Program-made: the position numbers and the translations under genes
Source: Sedimentisphaerales bacterium
Lineage (GTDB): Bacteria > Planctomycetota > Phycisphaerae > Sedimentisphaerales > SM23-30
Length of the DNA: 64,000 nt
Reading direction: 5' to 3'
Assembly (NCBI GenBank): GCA_028281535.1
Contig: JANQJS010000019.1
Coordinates: forward strand, 124,001-188,000
Part shown: piece after piece, positions 1,659-57,562 of the stretch
Position numbering within the stretch: position 1 is the stretch's first letter
How the letters are laid out: the number at the start of each line of letters is the position of its first letter
Notes under the pieces: generated by a model
Database searches by the model: none
What the model was told of the DNA's origin: nothing
Seen by the model: the letters and a program-made list of their open reading frames with translations, nothing else

Positions 1659-4600
1659 GTGGTTCAACGTTGGTTTTTCCTCAAACGTCTTTTCTATTAT
1701 CAACTTATAATCCTCAGTTGCTTACTTTTTCCACAAATCTGCATAGCTCAGTTTGGCGGTGGCAGCGGAACTGAGGAAGATCCCTATTTGCTCTATACTC
1801 CCGAGCACCTCCAAGCAATTGGAGAAAACCAACAGGAAAATGCCTTCTTTCATTACAAAATGATGAATGATATCGATCTAAGCGGCTATGATGGCAAAGA
1901 GGGCAGGCCCGAGTTTAATATGATTACTTATTGGGCAGCAAATTCAAATGATGATGGGTTTCGAGGTGTCTTTGATGGTAATGGGTTTCTAATTCACAAT
2001 TTTTCTTATGAATTTGATCAGCCTAATACGAACATATTTAATGGAACATTTGCTCTATTTAAGCGAATCGCAGTAACAGGTGTCGTTAAAAATGTAGGTC
2101 TATCGAATACGACTCTGAACACCATACACTTTGGAAATACAGATGTTTTTATGGGGGCATTATGTGGAGTAAATAAAGGGATCATTGAAAATTGCTATGT
2201 TGTAGATAGCTCCGTAACTAATCATGAAATTAGTCGAAGTGCATTTAATTCCGCACTAGGAGGGCTTGTTAGTTTAAATTATGGCACGATTCATAATAGT
2301 TTTGTCCAGAATACTTTAATAACAAGTGCTGGTGATGGTCACGATGGAAAGGTAGGGGGGGTCGTAGGGGAAAATTTAGGAGACATTAGTAAATCGTTTT
2401 CCCAGACAACGGTAAACGCTAGTCTTGTAGGAGGTTTTGTAGGGAAAAATTCGGGAGGACAGATTGATAATTGTTATACCAGTTCCACCGTGACGACTGA
2501 TATTGTAAATATAAGTAATCAGAAAAATGCTGGTGGGTTAGCAGCGTGGACGTCTGGTAAGATTGTGAATTGTTATTCCACAAGTTCTGTTGCCAGTTCA
2601 ATTAATGTAGGGGGTATGTTTGGAATTAATCATGGTGAAATTTATAATTGTTTTTGGAATACTGATGTGGCCGGGCAAACATCGAGTGACGGCGGAATCG
2701 GTGTCACCACGGCTCAAATGCAATCTGCATCGACATTTACTGACTGGTATTGTGGTTGGAAGATTGATGAAGGTATAGATTACCCGCGGTTGGAATGGGA
2801 AAACTTACCCGGTACCCTCATTTCTCCAAGTTATTCTGGGCAAGGGACCGCCAGCGATCCTATTCAAATTGAATCGATCGATCATTGGTATCAGCTTGGA
2901 CTATGTCCTTGTGATTGGGATTCCCATATAGAATTTACGAATGATTTAGATTTCAATGATTATCCTGGATTTGATCCCAATCGTCATCCGCAACCGATTT
3001 ACTATCAAATCGAAAATTTTGGTGGTACTATAAATGGTAATCATCACGCGATCTCAAATTTCTCGTATCAATCTTCACAAGATAATATTGGGTTGATTGG
3101 TTCAAGTAAAGTTGATTCAGAGATTAAAAATATCAGCATGGTTGACCCGAATGTTATGGGGATCGATAATGAAAATACAGGTGCTTTAATAGGAGAATTA
3201 AAAGGGAGCATTGAGAACTGCCATATTATTGGTGGCTCAGTCGTTGGTAATAAGTATGTTGGTGGATTAGTAGGAGGCAGGCAGGGAAGTAAGATACTAC
3301 ATAGCTCTGCAATATCTTGTGCTGTAAGTGGCATTGAATATGTTGGAGGATTGATAGGTTTTTCGTCATATACTCAATCTTGTCATTCTTCGTGTAATGT
3401 GGATGGTCAAAAAAATATAGGAGGAATTGCGGGGTATTCTCAATTTATTAAAAATTGTTTTAGTGATAGTCGTATACATGGGTCAGATCGATATGTTGGT
3501 GGTATTATTGGTACAGGAAATGCTTTTCAATGTTATTCTTCAGGAGAAATCACTGGGCTATATGAAGTTGGAGGAATTGTTGGATCGCATGCAAATGTTG
3601 TTTCTTGCTATTCAACAGCAGATGTTTCTGGAGAAATTAGCGTTGGAGGTATTGCAGGAAGCAGCGAAACAGGAGCGTTCTATAGTGTTAGATCCTGTTA
3701 TGCGAATGGACTGATTACAGGCGATAGCCATGTAGGTGGATTAGTTGGAGCTAATGGAAATATCATCAATAGTTATTTTTACGGCCAATTGTTTGGTAGT
3801 ACGAATGTAGGTGGATTAGTAGGGAGTAATTCTGATCCTGGTAAGGTTCAAAATAGTTTTTGGGACACAGATGTTAGTGGTGTATTGGTTAGTGCTGGCG
3901 GTACAGGTAAAACCACTATTGAAATGTTAGATCCTAATTTATATCTAAATGCTGGTTGGGATGTGGTTGGATATGAAGATCAACTTCCTAGTGATGATTG
4001 GGTGTTACAATCAGGTAATTACCCTCAGGTTTGGTGGCAAGCGGATCCCAACCATCTTGCTGAATTACCAGTATTTTCTGGAGGAATAGGGGGACTAGAA
4101 GATCCATTTTTGATTTCAACATATCAACAATGGAATCAAATTGGTGACAATCCTCGTTTAATGGATAAACATTTTTCTTTAATTAATGATATTGATGTTA
4201 ATTATCAGGAATTAATTTCCGTTGGTTCTGAAGAAAATCCATTTATAGGAGTATTCGATGGTAATGGGTTTGTGTTATCTAATATCACTCGAGATCAAGT
4301 TTTATTTCCGAAGATTGGTATACAATGTTCACCGGGTGGTATACTCAAGAACTTAAAGATTAAAAACATTCAGATGGGTGATGATGATCTTGATGTTGTT
4401 TCTTTGGTTGAAAATTCTTATGGAATGATAAAAAATGTTTCAATGAAAAATGTTCAATTGCAGGGCCAAGCCGTGTCTGGGTTTGTTAAAAATAATTATG
4501 GCTATATTTCCAATTGTAGTATTCGAGGTTTATTTTCAAGAGCTTTTTATAGGCAGCATGGATTAGTCGAATACAATTCAGGAAAAATTTTGGATTGTTA

Positions 4601-28084: not shown

Positions 28085-28118
28085 GATGATGGTTAGGGGA
28101 GGTTTCATTTGTGTTCGC

Positions 28119-28158
28119 CATCCCCATTTCGCCTGTGGCGAACTGAGGCTGCCACCCA
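28119..28158 (-). repeat. Dispersed repeat family C, intergenic copy
   Basis: Its reverse complement matches 54757-54796 at 38 of 40 bases. It contains the hairpin core TTCGCC/GGCGAA. Confidence 0.85.
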
Positions 28159-37095: not shown

Positions 37096-38565
37096 ATGAT
37101 CGATCGAAAAATGTCTAGAATTGTCTTGGTGCTTGTCTTTGTTTTGTGCCAGGCGGTCATTGCTGTTGATAATGACGGTGACGGTTTTCATGTTCCTGCT
37201 GATTGTCATGATGGTAACTCATCCATTTATCCAGGTGCTCCTGAGATTCTCTGTAATGGCGTTGATGAAAATTGCAATGGCTTAAGTGATGACGATATCA
37301 ATAACGATGGCGATCCCGTATCCTTTTGCAGTGGTGATTGTGATGATAATAATTCCAATCGTTATCCAGGCAATGCGGAAGTTCTATGTAACAACTTTGA
37401 TGAAAACTGCAATGGCAATGGCGATGATGATAAAAACACTGATGGCGATCCTGTGACATTTTGTAATGGGGATTGTAATGATAATAATTTCAATATATGG
37501 CCTGGTAATGTAGAAACTTTATGCAATGGCGTGGATGATAATTGCAATGGTTTGGGCGATGATGATTTAAACCTTGATGGCGATCCTGTGACTTTTTGCA
37601 GCGGCGATTGCGATGATAATGACCCTGCTCGCTATCCAGGAGCAACAGAAATTTGTGATAGCGTAGACAATAATTGTAATGGGTCCGTTGATGAGGGAAT
37701 CACGGACGATATTGATAATGATGGTTTCACGATTTGTGATGGGGATTGTGATGATTTAGATCCAGCCATTTATCCGGGTGCTCCTGAGGTCTGTGACGAG
37801 ATCGATAATAATTGTGATGGCACTATTGATAACGATTGTATTTGTCTTGGGCCAATCACCCCATGTGATTATGATTTGCCCGGCGATTTAAATAATGATT
37901 GTTATGTCGATATTATTGACTTTTCTATTTTTTCATCAAATTGGCTACAATGTTGTCCTGGCCCATCTTGCACACTCATTGATAATGATGGCGATGGCTA
38001 TCCACCAAGTCAGGATTGTGATGAATGTGATCCCAATGTTCATGTTGGTATGAATGAAATCTGCAACGATGGTATTGACAATAACTGTGATGGTCAAATT
38101 GATGAAGAAGCATGTGAATGCGAAACACATGTTCAATGTGATGATAATAGTTTATGTACCATAGATTCATGTGTTGCTGGAGCTTGTCTCTATATTGAAC
38201 AGCAGTGCATTGATGATAACAATCCATGTACAACTGATTTGGGTTGTAATCCTACGACGGGTCTATGTGAAACCGGATTTAATAACGGGGCTGTTTGCGA
38301 TGATGGCGATCCTTGCACAAATAATGATTCATGCCTTAACGGCAGTTGTCAAGGTTCCTTTGCTTGCGATGATGGCAATGAATGCACGATCGACGATTGT
38401 GTACCGCAAAGCGGTCAGTGTATATATTCTTCCGTTCCGATAGGCGATCCATGTACTGGTGGACTGTGTAATTCGAATAATGAATGTGTCGAATGCATTG
38501 ATAATAGTGATTGCCTGTCAGGTCAAGTTTGTACGGATGGCGATTGCGGTTTTCCAGCCAGTTAA
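37096..38565 (+). CDS. Secreted cysteine-rich MopE-like metal-binding repeat protein with dockerin-like unit
   Basis: 489 residues; GAGGAGG four bases ahead; signal peptide ends near AVIAVD. Five N-terminal repeats follow the putative metal-binding motif D-x-D-G-D...D-C-D-D-x-x-P-x-x-Y-P-G-A-x-E-x-C-x-x-x-D-x-N-C-x-G (Pfam MopE-type). Then GDLNNDCYVDIIDFSIFSSN is a dockerin-like unit, another DG-repeat follows, and the last ~170 residues have about 20 cysteines in repeats such as CDDGDPCTNNDSC and CDDGNECTIDDC. Many disulfides and Ca2+ or other metal sites are expected; role unknown, probably surface or extracellular. Confidence 0.87.
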   Translation: MIDRKMSRIVLVLVFVLCQAVIAVDNDGDGFHVPADCHDGNSSIYPGAPEILCNGVDENCNGLSDDDINNDGDPVSFCSGDCDDNNSNRYPGNAEVLCNNFDENCNGNGDDDKNTDGDPVTFCNGDCNDNNFNIWPGNVETLCNGVDDNCNGLGDDDLNLDGDPVTFCSGDCDDNDPARYPGATEICDSVDNNCNGSVDEGITDDIDNDGFTICDGDCDDLDPAIYPGAPEVCDEIDNNCDGTIDNDCICLGPITPCDYDLPGDLNNDCYVDIIDFSIFSSNWLQCCPGPSCTLIDNDGDGYPPSQDCDECDPNVHVGMNEICNDGIDNNCDGQIDEEACECETHVQCDDNSLCTIDSCVAGACLYIEQQCIDDNNPCTTDLGCNPTTGLCETGFNNGAVCDDGDPCTNNDSCLNGSCQGSFACDDGNECTIDDCVPQSGQCIYSSVPIGDPCTGGLCNSNNECVECIDNSDCLSGQVCTDGDCGFPAS

Positions 38566-52944: not shown

Positions 52945-54147
52945 ATGAAAAATCATACACTCACTGGTCCAAAAGGATTTCGTGTTTCTGCCGTTAAAGC
53001 GGGTATCAAAGCCAGCGGCAAACTCGATCTGGGCCTGATCATTGCGGACAAACCTTGCGTCGCGGTAGGGATGTTCACACAAAATAAAATCGTTGCCTCG
53101 GCTGTGACTGTTAGCAAGGAGCATCTTTCCAATAACAAAGCACAAGCGATTTATGTCAATGCGGGCAACGCCAATGCCTGCACTGGCCAAAAAGGCCATA
53201 ACGATTCGGTGACCATCGCCGAAAAAGTCGCCGAGCTGTTTGAACTGACACCAGAAAATGTATTAGTCGCATCGACTGGAATTATTGGCGAAATGCTGCC
53301 GATGGGTAACGTTCTTAATGGCATCGAAAAAGCCGCTGAGAAAATTGATCAAGGTTCGCGTGGTGCTAAGCGTTTTGCCAAGGCAATTATGACCACTGAT
53401 ACTAAAGTGAAAACCGCTTATGCCGAGGTCAAGCTGGGAAGCAAAATCGTTCGTTTAGCCGCGACGGTTAAAGGTGCTGGTATGATTGCTCCTAATATGG
53501 CGACCATGCTCTGTTTTATAACGACCGATGTTAATATCTCTCCAGCATTATTAAAACGTGCCCTTAAAGATACGGTCGAAATCACATTTAATAAAGTGAC
53601 AATCGATAAACATGAAAGTACCAACGATTCCATTTTTGCTTTAGCTTCCGGTTTAGCTGAAAATAACAAGATCAGCAAACAAGACCTGAATTATCGAAAA
53701 TTTGCCAAAGCCCTTTGGGAGATTTGCGATGACTTGGCCCAGCAAATGGCCGCCGATGGCGAAGGTGCCAATAACGCTGTGACTGTTAAAGTGGCTGGTG
53801 CTGCTAATGCAACTGACGCTCACAATGCTGTGCGAGCCATTGTCGATAGTCCACTCGTGCGTTGTGCATTTCATGGCGCCGATCCAAACTGGGGACGTAT
53901 CGTCAGTGCAGTAGGTTTTAGCGGCGCAAAATTCAACGAATCCAAACTAAGCTGCAAAATCGCAGATACGTTTGTGTATCGTAATGGCAAACCCGCAGAC
54001 TTTGATTTCAAGGCCCTCTCCAAACAAATGAAAGAAAAAGAGTGGCAAGTCCTTGTCAACCTTGGTGCAGGCAAACACGAAGACTTCTGCTACACTTGTG
54101 ATTTATCGCGTGACTATATCACCATCAATGCAGATTATCATACATGA
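52945..54147 (+). CDS. argJ: Bifunctional ornithine acetyltransferase / N-acetylglutamate synthase
   Basis: 400 residues; AAGGA ahead of the ATG. Self-processing site AGMIAPNMATMLCF, with nucleophile Thr187, then FNKVTIDKHESTNDSIFALA and FHGADPNWGRIVSAVGFS. It recycles the acetyl group from N-acetylornithine to glutamate in the cyclic arginine pathway. Complete, and it goes with argC; no argB or argD is in view. Confidence 0.97.
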   Translation: MKNHTLTGPKGFRVSAVKAGIKASGKLDLGLIIADKPCVAVGMFTQNKIVASAVTVSKEHLSNNKAQAIYVNAGNANACTGQKGHNDSVTIAEKVAELFELTPENVLVASTGIIGEMLPMGNVLNGIEKAAEKIDQGSRGAKRFAKAIMTTDTKVKTAYAEVKLGSKIVRLAATVKGAGMIAPNMATMLCFITTDVNISPALLKRALKDTVEITFNKVTIDKHESTNDSIFALASGLAENNKISKQDLNYRKFAKALWEICDDLAQQMAADGEGANNAVTVKVAGAANATDAHNAVRAIVDSPLVRCAFHGADPNWGRIVSAVGFSGAKFNESKLSCKIADTFVYRNGKPADFDFKALSKQMKEKEWQVLVNLGAGKHEDFCYTCDLSRDYITINADYHT

Positions 54148-54160
54148 TTTTTTTCTCTCT

Positions 54161-54230
54161 GTAGGCTGACCAGCTTCTGGCCGGCACTATTGGTTAAATG
54201 AAATGCCGGGCAAGCAGCTGCCCGGCCTAC
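54161..54230. repeat. REP-like inverted repeat pair
   Basis: GTAGGCTGACCAGC... (54161-54186) and ...GCAGCTGCCCGGCCTAC (54204-54230) are imperfect inverted copies. The right unit has an inner hairpin GCCGGGCA/TGCCCGGC. It follows argJ within 15 bases, filling most of the gap before the P-loop gene. Confidence 0.65.
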
Positions 54231-54249: not shown

Positions 54250-54804
54250 ATGAACCGGATAATTGTGGTTGGAACAACAGGAAGTGGGAAATCTACTTTA
54301 GCAAAGAAGATTTCTCGTGAATTGAATTATAAATATATTCAGCTCGATGCTCTTTTTTGGAAACCGAATTGGACGCAGCCGTCTAATGAAGAGTTTTTGG
54401 AAAAATTACAAATAGAAATATCTAGTGATTGTTGGATAATAGATGGCAATTATGGACAAACCCATCCTCTAACCTGGGCAAAAGCAGATTGTGTTATATG
54501 GATTGATCTGCCTTTATGGAAGACCTTATATCATAATATCATCAGGTCTGTTAAACGATCTATCAGGCGAGAAGAACTTTGGCAAGGCACGGGTAATAGA
54601 GAGTCCTTCAAAAGAATGTTTTCCAAAGATTCAATCATTCTCTGGCTTTTGAAAACCTATAAATCTAATATTAAGTTATACGAAAGCAGAATGAAAGACG
54701 CTGCTTACTCACATATCAAATTTGTTAGATTAAAGTCACGTAAGGAAATCAAAAACTGGGTGGCCGCCTCAGTTCGCCAAAGGCGAAATGGGGATGAAGA
54801 ATAG
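54250..54804 (+). CDS. P-loop nucleoside-kinase-like protein (FlaR/adenylate-kinase-like) ending in a dispersed repeat
   Basis: 184 residues. Walker A VVGTTGSGKSTLAKKI, YIQLDALFWKPNWTQ, a C-W-I-I-D-G-N-Y segment, DCVIWIDLPLWKTLY and a lid-like RSIRREELWQGTGNRESFK: the pattern of AAA_18/FlaR-type adenylate-kinase-like proteins of unsettled substrate. The 40 bases 54757-54796 are a copy of dispersed repeat C, so the last ~16 residues (WVAASVRQRRNGDEE) are largely repeat-encoded, possibly after the native end was replaced. Confidence 0.8.
   Translation: MNRIIVVGTTGSGKSTLAKKISRELNYKYIQLDALFWKPNWTQPSNEEFLEKLQIEISSDCWIIDGNYGQTHPLTWAKADCVIWIDLPLWKTLYHNIIRSVKRSIRREELWQGTGNRESFKRMFSKDSIILWLLKTYKSNIKLYESRMKDAAYSHIKFVRLKSRKEIKNWVAASVRQRRNGDEE
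54757..54796 (+). repeat. Dispersed repeat family C, copy within a coding sequence
   Basis: 38 of 40 bases match the reverse complement of 28119-28158, including the TTCGCC/GGCGAA hairpin. It encodes the C-terminus of the P-loop protein. Confidence 0.85.
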
Positions 54805-54823: not shown

Positions 54824-54900
54824 CTCGCTAATGGCTAGCGAGCAACGCGAGCGGGTAAGTGACCACAAGATCGCGGCGGTAAAAGGTGCCTTTGGCACCT
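54824..54900 (-). repeat. Dispersed repeat family D, copy 2, just past the topA stop
   Basis: Same block order as 38746-38820. It has an internal hairpin CTCGCTA/TAGCGAG and ends with hairpin AGGTGCC-ttt-GGCACCT, which overlaps the last two bases of the topA stop codon. Confidence 0.75.
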
Positions 54901-57562
54901 AGGAGGCTTTTTTTCGGGCGGTGGTTTTCTTTTTAGTAGTTTTTTTCTTGGTCGCTTTTTTCGTGGTTTTTTTGGCTACAGCTTTCTTGGTAGTGGTTCC
55001 GCCTTTGGCTTCTTTTTCGGCTTTCTTTTTGCGTTGAGCTGCACCTTCAGCTGAAACCACGCGGATCTTTTTGCCTTTCGCGGCAAACTCATCGGCAATT
55101 TCTAAAGCCTTGGCAACTTTGTTTTCTTTGGCTTTGATCGTGGCGTCAGGTAAACCCTTTGTGTCACGGATTAGAACAAAACCGCCGCCATGGTATTGTT
55201 TTGAAATGCGTTTTTTGACCTTGGTGGTTTCATCCAGCATTGTCTGGCATTCTTCCAGTGTCAATTTTGATGGATCCGTTTCTTTTGGAACCTTGGCATT
55301 TTTCAAACCGTCCGTAATAAAAGGTCCCCAGCGGCCATCGATCACTTGAATTGGTGACCCTTCAAACAACGCGAATTCTTTTTCTGCATCCGCTTTTTTC
55401 TTTTCTTCGATAATACCCAAAACATCATCCATCATCGCGGTGTGCGGATCCAAAGGTTCGATGGAGACATTGTGTGGAAATAGATCAATACCTTTGACGA
55501 CATTTTCCTCAAAGTACATATCGATTTCTTTATTCATATACTTGGCATATGGCCCAAAGCGTCCCGTATTGACATAGACTTCTTCGCCGTCAGGCGTTTC
55601 ACCCAAGCAGCGAGGTAAATCAAACAGCGGCAGCACTTCTTCCAGTGTGACCGTGCTCATTTTCTGATCAGGTCGCAGGCCAGCAAATTGTGGTTTTTCT
55701 TCATCATCGCGATGACCAATTTGAGCATACGGACCAAAGCGTCCAATTTTTACTGAAATTGGTTTACCCGTTTTGGGATCGGTGCCTAATTCACGCGTTT
55801 GCGATGCTTCTTCGCGCGAGACATCTTCAGCTTTGATGACATCTTTGTGGAATGGATCGTAAAACTCTGCGATCATATCCTGCCATTTCATTTTACCTTC
55901 AGCAATCTGGTCAAACTCGGCTTCCACATTAGCGGTAAAGTTATAATCAATCACTTCGGTAAAGTGTTTCACCAGGAAATCGGTGACAACGCCAGCAATA
56001 TCCAGTGGAAAAAGTTTTCCTTTATCCGCGCCGGTGATTTCTGTTTTATCTTCACGATTAATGGCATCGTTTTGCAATGCCAAGATGCGTATTTCGCGTT
56101 CAGTGCCAGGGCGTTCTGCTTTTTCAACATAACCTCGATCCTGGATCGTTGAAATCGTCGGGGCATAGGTCGAAGGACGACCAATACCCATTTCTTCCAA
56201 CTTTTTAACTAGAGCTGCTTCAGTATAACGAGCGGGTGGCCGGCTAAAGCTTTCCTGGGCACGCATTACGTCCAGATCCAGTGTTTGTCCAACTTCTAAT
56301 GTTGGCAGTTTTTTGTCATCTGCACCATTGTCCTGGTACACTTTGAGGAAACCATCAAAAGTGATGACTTCGCCTTTTGCGACCAGTTGTTCGTCAACGG
56401 TTGAAACATTGATCTTAGCCGTGGTACGTTCGAATTCCGCTTCAGCCATCTGTGACGCCATGGTGCGTTGCCAGATCAACTCATATAAACGTTGTTCATT
56501 TTTTTCGCCCTTGACTTCCGGTTTACTCAAGTCGGTTGGACGAATCGCTTCGTGAGCTTCCTGAGCATCTGCTTTGTTCGTTTTATAACGACGGGTGTTC
56601 ACATAGCGATCGCCATATTGTCCGCCGATATAATTTGAAGCTTGTTCGAGTGCCAATTCAGATAAATTCACCGAATCGGTTCGCATGTAAGTGATTTTAC
56701 CTGACTCATATAAACGTTGTGCAACGACCATGGTTTGCTTAACAGAAAATCCCAATTTCTGGGATGCGGCCTGTTGCAGCGTTGATGTTGTAAAAGGGGG
56801 TCTGGGCGAGCGTTTGGCTGGCTTTTGTTCCAGGCTATCAACGGTATAAGTCGCACCTTTGACACTTTCCAAAAAGCCGTTCGCTTCATCGAATGACTCT
56901 TTGTTTTTAGGCAGTCCTGCTAGCAGGGTTTCTTTTTTGCCGTTGTCAAATTCGGCCGTTACTTTGAAGGTTGATTCAGATGTAAACGCTTCAATTTCGC
57001 GTTCACGCTCCACAACGATTCGGACAGCAACGGATTGTACACGTCCTGCAGAAAGGCCTGTTTGGATCTTTTTCCAGAGGATCGGCGAAAGTTCATAGCC
57101 CACCAATCGATCCAATACGCGCCGCGCCTGTTGGGCATTGACCAGATCTAAATCGATGTTGCGAGGGTTCTCGATCGCATTCAAGATGGCCGGCTTGGTA
57201 ATTTCATGAAAGACAATACGCTTGGTGTTGGATTCATCCAATTCGAGCGCTTCGACCAGGTGCCAGGCGATGGCTTCTCCTTCGCGATCTTCATCGCTTG
57301 CGAGCCAGACGGTTTGGCATTTGGTTACTTCTTTTTGCAACTCTTTTATATTGTCTTCTTTATTTTGGCTGATCTCGTAGGTGGGCTCAAATCCATTCTC
57401 AATATCGATGGAAATGCCCTTTTTGGGTAGATCTCGTATGTGGCCAAAGCTCGACTTCACGGTAAAGTCTTTGCCTAGAAATTTCTCGATTGTTTTGGCT
57501 TTCGCTGGTGATTCCACGATCACCAGTGATTTTCCATTGCCTGAGGCTTTTGAGCTTGCCAT
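54899..57562 (-). CDS. topA: DNA topoisomerase I
   Basis: 887 residues. Toprim domain: LVIVESPAKAKTIEKFL and WLASDEDREGEAIAWHL. Active Tyr292 in ITYMRTDSVNLS. GRPSTYAPTISTIQDRGYVEK marks domain III-IV. The C-terminal part has topo-C repeats (RFGPYAQIGHRD, TGRFGPYAKYM, DGRWGPFITDGL) instead of Cys zinc fingers, and a Lys/Thr-rich tail (KKTTKKATKKKTTKKKTTAR) of histone-like character that would bind DNA. It relaxes negative supercoils. A long intergenic region (57563-57956) precedes it. Confidence 0.97.
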   Translation of the reverse strand: MASSKASGNGKSLVIVESPAKAKTIEKFLGKDFTVKSSFGHIRDLPKKGISIDIENGFEPTYEISQNKEDNIKELQKEVTKCQTVWLASDEDREGEAIAWHLVEALELDESNTKRIVFHEITKPAILNAIENPRNIDLDLVNAQQARRVLDRLVGYELSPILWKKIQTGLSAGRVQSVAVRIVVEREREIEAFTSESTFKVTAEFDNGKKETLLAGLPKNKESFDEANGFLESVKGATYTVDSLEQKPAKRSPRPPFTTSTLQQAASQKLGFSVKQTMVVAQRLYESGKITYMRTDSVNLSELALEQASNYIGGQYGDRYVNTRRYKTNKADAQEAHEAIRPTDLSKPEVKGEKNEQRLYELIWQRTMASQMAEAEFERTTAKINVSTVDEQLVAKGEVITFDGFLKVYQDNGADDKKLPTLEVGQTLDLDVMRAQESFSRPPARYTEAALVKKLEEMGIGRPSTYAPTISTIQDRGYVEKAERPGTEREIRILALQNDAINREDKTEITGADKGKLFPLDIAGVVTDFLVKHFTEVIDYNFTANVEAEFDQIAEGKMKWQDMIAEFYDPFHKDVIKAEDVSREEASQTRELGTDPKTGKPISVKIGRFGPYAQIGHRDDEEKPQFAGLRPDQKMSTVTLEEVLPLFDLPRCLGETPDGEEVYVNTGRFGPYAKYMNKEIDMYFEENVVKGIDLFPHNVSIEPLDPHTAMMDDVLGIIEEKKKADAEKEFALFEGSPIQVIDGRWGPFITDGLKNAKVPKETDPSKLTLEECQTMLDETTKVKKRISKQYHGGGFVLIRDTKGLPDATIKAKENKVAKALEIADEFAAKGKKIRVVSAEGAAQRKKKAEKEAKGGTTTKKAVAKKTTKKATKKKTTKKKTTARKKAS

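Follow-up and report, generated by a model that had tools for sequence, protein, structure and literature searches.

A GTGG-headed palindromic repeat encodes the C-terminus of a P-loop kinase-like protein in a Sedimentisphaerales bacterium

In a Sedimentisphaerales bacterium, the C-terminus of a P-loop kinase-like protein is encoded by a dispersed palindromic repeat, here termed REP1. We consider it probable that REP1 is a GT(A/G)G-headed REP that is spread by a cognate RAYT, and that one copy entered the 3' end of the kinase-like gene, displaced the tail of the encoded protein and became its last codons. The window, i.e. the whole stretch of 64,000 nucleotides that was analyzed, contains the following relevant features:

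52945 to 54147, + strand: upstream neighbor, which we take to be argJ-like; homologues in 10 of the 12 other genomes of the family
54161 to 54185, + strand: REP2-like unit with GTAG head that opens an inverted pair; pattern match with at most 3 substitutions; further relatives in other parts of the genome
54205 to 54230, − strand: REP2 unit with GTAG head that completes this pair; same pattern; relatives elsewhere in the genome
54250 to 54804, + strand: 184-aa P-loop kinase-like protein; in NCBIfam closest to PRK08118 (DNA topology modulation protein), with a score under the cut-off
54757 to 54799, + strand: REP1 copy of 43 nt, forming codons 170-183 of the kinase-like ORF in frame; 38 of 40 bases in common with the other copy
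54888 to 54914, + strand: hairpin with T run behind the kinase-like gene, resembling a terminator; consensus match only
54899 to 57562, − strand: convergent downstream neighbor from the ORF list, presumably topA-like
28116 to 28158, − strand: the other REP1 copy of the window, between genes; covariance model match

The repeat within the coding frame

A preliminary description of this DNA had noted that 38 of the 40 bases at 54757-54796 match the reverse complement of 28119-28158, and direct reading of both stretches indeed gives two differing bases. It was likewise right in that the other copy is intergenic, as this copy lies outside the called genes, and in that the coding frame passes through the repeat and stops 8 bases after position 54796, where TAG at 54802-54804 ends the ORF. 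REP1 begins exactly at codon 170, with position 54757 as first base. The tail is thus REP-coded as claimed, but the given number of about 16 repeat-derived residues was slightly high: 15 residues (W170-E184) lie between the repeat start and the stop, and 14 of these (W170-E183) are coded wholly inside the 43-nt unit. In the window, a 22-nt core pattern with up to 3 mismatches occurs only at the sites of the two copies, with 0 matches in 100 shuffles. The covariance model detected the copies at 54757 and 28116 with E-values of 2.4e-14 and 1.9e-17, respectively, and the next best site with 0.62, all of which are rough values, and both copies are among the 23 that were used for building the model. 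When folded as DNA, the two window copies have z-scores of -3.0 and -5.0.

REP1 is a dispersed family with a conserved head

The repeat had been described as dispersed and palindromic, and the genome-wide count agrees with this: in the 4.44 Mb of the host genome (67 contigs), the covariance model found 61 matches of the 43-nt imperfect palindrome at E<=10 and 51 at E<=0.01, these E-values again being rough. A DNA search with REP1 in the same genome returned 37 sites at E<=10, including the query, and for 22 of these the E-value was below 1e-3. The model was built from 23 copies that were chosen by their arm pattern with the inner stem left free, and its structure was specified by us. In these copies, the inner stem covaries, with changes on both sides in 26 cells as compared to 7.5 in shuffles, a value that was reached by none of 500 shuffles. 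Pairing is found in 97.7% of the cells, and in at most 52.6% when the partners are slid against each other. Two of the five covariation measures, namely pairs changed on both sides and further pair types, were not above the shuffles in this set, and the hairpin keeps mismatches as well as covarying pairs. The head at columns 4-7 is GTGG in 46 and GTAG in one of the 51 copies, which places GT(A/G)G directly before the palindrome in 47 of them. Several copies are arranged as inverted pairs.

According to a rough codon-usage caller, 32 of the 51 copies lie between genes of the same direction, six between convergent and five between divergent genes, three overlap genes, and the remaining five are near contig or stretch edges with a gene-free side. 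The copy at the end of the kinase-like gene was counted as convergent because the caller missed this gene. After revision, we judge four of the 51 copies to be coding, in three genes (the kinase-like gene, the gene of a DUF3987 protein and that of a 227-aa protein). Copies at four further loci (L090, L101, L109, L119) first seemed to overlap ORFs and were dropped as N-terminal over-extensions, since the starts suggested by codon scores fall past the repeat, which is a judgement and not a proof. By eye, a repeat-like stretch with a GGGCGAGA-like motif at its end adjoins several REP1 copies (L006, L008, L016, L017, L018), and this stretch and REP1 perhaps form a composite repeat.

One RAYT lineage is associated with the repeat

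The host genome contains two Y1_Tnp matches, RAYT1 on contig C66 and RAYT2 on contig C34. Three REP1 copies surround RAYT1 within about 730 bp (83619 on the + strand, 84249 on the − strand, 84304 on the + strand), and under random placement of copies such a clustering has a p of about 1e-7. RAYT1 scores 33.1 bits against Y1_Tnp, above the cut-off of 23 bits. Its frame is interrupted in the host genome, where two open parts of 145 and 66 aa do not lie in the same frame, and the interruption is either decay or an assembly error. The 145-aa piece reaches 55.1 bits against NF047646 (REP-associated tyrosine transposase) and remains under the 80-bit cut-off, which RAYT2 exceeds with 178.3 bits. RAYT2 is flanked by a separate family, REP2, with a GTAG head. 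The RAYT2 gene (L075, ORF 2010-2582, − strand) also carries a REP2 unit at 2262-2306 inside its own coding frame.

Homologues of RAYT1 at E<=1e-8 occur in 30 of the 161 genomes of the order, including the host, and several of those in relatives have long uninterrupted frames. With the best locus taken per genome, this gave 30 loci, or 29 without the host. All of these 29 loci contain the sequence GGGTGGC, 25 of them at two or more sites, and the total of 89 sites compares with 15.9 in shuffled sequences. At other Y1_Tnp loci, GGGTGGC was present in only 9 of 29, with 11 sites versus 10.2 shuffled, in a comparison in which all controls are from the host's family and the RAYT1-clade loci are mostly from two other families of the order, and in which a few control loci are truncated or in very long ORFs and thus may not be RAYTs. 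Of the 29 non-host RAYT1-clade loci, 18 were matched by the REP1 covariance model at E<=0.05, and at other Y1_Tnp loci of the host's family (28 loci and the host RAYT2, out of 40 Y1_Tnp matches listed) it had no match better than an E-value of 0.22. The loci L190-L216 share the GGGTGGC head, and the hairpins behind it differ widely among genomes. A joint divergence of repeat and transposase would lead to such a variation, and the RAYT1-clade loci are a set that is suited for studying this co-divergence.

The association is incomplete at the genome level. REP1-like matches at E<=0.001 were found in 17 of 29 RAYT1-bearing and in 35 of 131 other genomes, without the host (p 0.002, not corrected for kinship), and many genomes therefore hold only the repeat or only RAYT1. 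In the host's family, REP1-like copies at E<=0.01 occur without a RAYT1 homologue in the genomes G007 (20), G002 (15) and G010 (9), and G009 has RAYT1 homologues without any REP1 match.

The kinase-like protein and its surroundings

The label “kinase-like” of the preliminary description proved credible, as family and fold matches point to a P-loop kinase-like protein. The ORF scores 109.8 bits against PRK08118 over residues 1-173, with a cut-off of 215, and by that cut-off its sequence makes the protein a relative and not a member of this family. The best matches in a fold search were adenylate-kinase-like, and a sequence search of solved structures gave weak P-loop matches and nothing stronger. 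Only the host and G005 have a full-length homologue among the 40 genomes searched, the one of G005 being 48-49% identical with a different tail, and six other genomes match the P-loop part alone. Relatives were also found in 202 plasmid and seven phage records. The REP2 inverted pair ends 19 bp before the ATG of the kinase-like gene, which thus is bracketed by two REP families, REP2 upstream and REP1 at the 3' end.

In total, 34 homologue loci were found, 32 were taken into one comparison and 16 were aligned; early-ending frames (among them L043, L044, L070), fusions (L051, L054) and close duplicates were left out, as were others for brevity. It had been predicted that REP-free homologues end before WVAASV, and this was not the case: all 16 continue for 5-20 residues past N169 (median 8). 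Residue 170 is hydrophobic in all of them (W in five, F or Y in six, L in five). Past residue 171, the homologues agree in isolated residues only, for example in the Ala that L040 has at position 172, and this is also all that the 16 share with the VAASVRQRRNGDEE-like ending. REP-free homologues with the same terminal residues, which would have spoken against an acquired end, were thus not among them, and REP1 had no match at E<=1 in 18 loci that contain the aligned homologues and the G005 gene. As the homologues run past N169 with a hydrophobic residue 170, it is probable that a short variable tail was replaced, and W170 may be either ancestral or REP-made.

In the AlphaFold model, the last helix spans residues 164-181, compared to 165-174 in the REP-free homologue L039, and the REP-coded residues are therefore predicted to finish and lengthen this helix. 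The mean pLDDT in the tail is 90 for residues 171-180 and 67 for residues 181-184. Relative to the REP1 consensus, the copy has GCC instead of GCA at A172, a synonymous change that nevertheless breaks a stem pair, and the lowest stem pairs are eroded. The change at A172 is a single site and proves nothing about selection.

How the repeat may have become the gene end

REP1 would be a non-autonomous hairpin that is mobilized by its cognate RAYT. One copy would have moved into the P-loop kinase gene, an accessory gene, at its 3' end and displaced the short and variable native tail. Without a stop in the kinase frame, the repeat would then have become the last 14-15 codons, with the stop just past the repeat edge. 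It would likely have entered next to N169/W170. There, the GG-GTGG head is directly preceded by a CT, whose C belongs to AAC (N169) and whose T belongs to TGG (W170). In 34 of the 51 REP1 copies, which are not independent of each other, both bases before GG-GTGG are pyrimidines; CT precedes it in 13, CA in six and CC in five copies. In the excerpted text of PMC8266576, the cleavage site of the E. coli TnpA-REP is a CT on the 5' or the 3' side of the REP, and the GTGG head of a Marinomonas system is associated with cutting at CA or CC, so that we infer the cut site of the kinase copy. We think that the REP-coded tail is tolerated rather than selected.

In the preliminary description, this was a case of repeat insertion altering a gene end. 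It holds that REP1 forms the gene end and that the tails are unrelated; the insertion event itself is what we infer, as no empty site was found. Other evidence against our account of REP1 and its insertion is that the host RAYT1 is interrupted, that repeat and RAYT1 are often separate, that RAYT1-clade and control loci are largely from different families, that the GTGG head of the Marinomonas system went with CA or CC and not with CT, and that the position of W170 is hydrophobic in the homologues.

What alternatives exist for such an insertion into the gene? REP1 could have landed just past the native stop codon, and a later stop loss could have extended translation into the repeat. REP1 copies often follow gene ends shortly, for example after 2, 7, 7, 8, 8, 9 or 10 bases, and since the proteins without REP1 terminate 5-20 residues after N169, the native stop could have been close to the left edge of the repeat. 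However, REP1 starts at codon 170, where all 16 homologues still have 5-20 residues left, and a native stop before this codon would have made the protein shorter than any of them, which renders such a read-through unlikely.

It is also rather doubtful that the repeat has been exapted, i.e. that the end completes the last helix, adds a basic helical extension and is now used by the enzyme, and that repeats of an order-wide GGGTGGC RAYT lineage repeatedly become protein. The kinase end, the linker of the DUF3987 protein and the second gene end would be the instances of this.

The kinase-like gene could further be a decaying or untranslated passenger, in which case the REP-coded end would have no consequence for any protein. 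The gene is AT-rich, with a GC content of 0.36-0.37 in internal windows as compared to 0.39-0.51 in argJ and 0.41-0.52 in topA, and the codon-usage scorer did not call it. Neither the gene nor topA was present next to argJ in relatives (11 loci from 10 relatives, with at most 1.5 kb on either side and in some cases less because of contig ends). But homology extends over the full length, the P-loop and other invariant residues are conserved, there is no internal stop, and the predicted fold is confident (mean pLDDT 90.6), all of which makes a passenger improbable.

An origin of REP1 as cellular RNA or terminator element that spread by recombination is hardly credible: the covarying hairpin, the mostly intergenic copies and the occurrence of REP1-like repeats in some genomes without RAYT1 homologue would fit, but no Rfam family matched in the window at gathering score, the 43-nt unit has no T run, and the strand-specific GTGG head, the inverted pairs and the clear association with one RAYT clade argue for a mobile REP.

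Relation to known repeats

In the excerpted accounts of REPs (PMC2817692, PMC8266576), a GTGG or GTAG head is followed by an imperfect palindrome, and the numerous, mostly extragenic units include inverted copies around the RAYT gene. REP1 resembles these: it has the head, a foldable, covarying imperfect palindrome, many dispersed and mostly extragenic copies, and inverted copies flanking RAYT1, and it fits the GT(A/G)G class. As compared to the REPs in these excerpts, REP1 has 51 and not hundreds of copies, the common head is longer (GGGTGGC), and the host RAYT is interrupted.

Intragenic REPs and REPs at the ends of genes have already been published, as the excerpted text of PMC3733652 reports, and the kinase-end REP1 thus is a well-bounded new example and not a new phenomenon. 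Like the intragenic REPs of that excerpt, it is translated in frame; unlike them, it resides in a kinase-like protein, and the stop is not in the head but 3 bases beyond the 43-nt unit. The palindromic elements of Rickettsia, also treated there, are palindromic repeats like REP1 that are translated within unrelated proteins. In contrast to REP1 with its GTGG head and linked RAYT, the R. conorii repeats are described in that text as CGTC-tagged and without dedicated transposase (PMC3733652). The kinase-end copy ties a translated repeat to a likely transposase lineage and to an order-wide head sequence, and it is well bounded enough to serve for tests of how protein ends are edited by the copying of REPs. 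Should the tail have a function, a selfish hairpin would clearly have turned into protein here; otherwise the copy is one more tolerated insertion. The GGGTGGC-headed family that is shared across an order is the more useful by-product.

Further copies within reading frames

On contig C51 of the host genome (G000), an inverted REP1 pair and two REP2-like units together form about 220 nt (L141, 3433-3653) that are in frame within an ORF at 1805-4453 (− strand). This REP stretch runs through the linker between a Toprim-like part, which is below the cut-off, and the DUF3987 domain. At L107 (1501-1542; C53:163445-163486), REP1 in reversed orientation supplies the stop codon of a gene for a 227-aa uncharacterized protein, together with roughly the 7-8 codons before it. 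Within the window, a 45-nt direct repeat occurs four times at 37201-37788 with spacings of 135, 270 and 138, all of which are multiples of 3, and we presume that it is perhaps coding and of a metal-binding kind.
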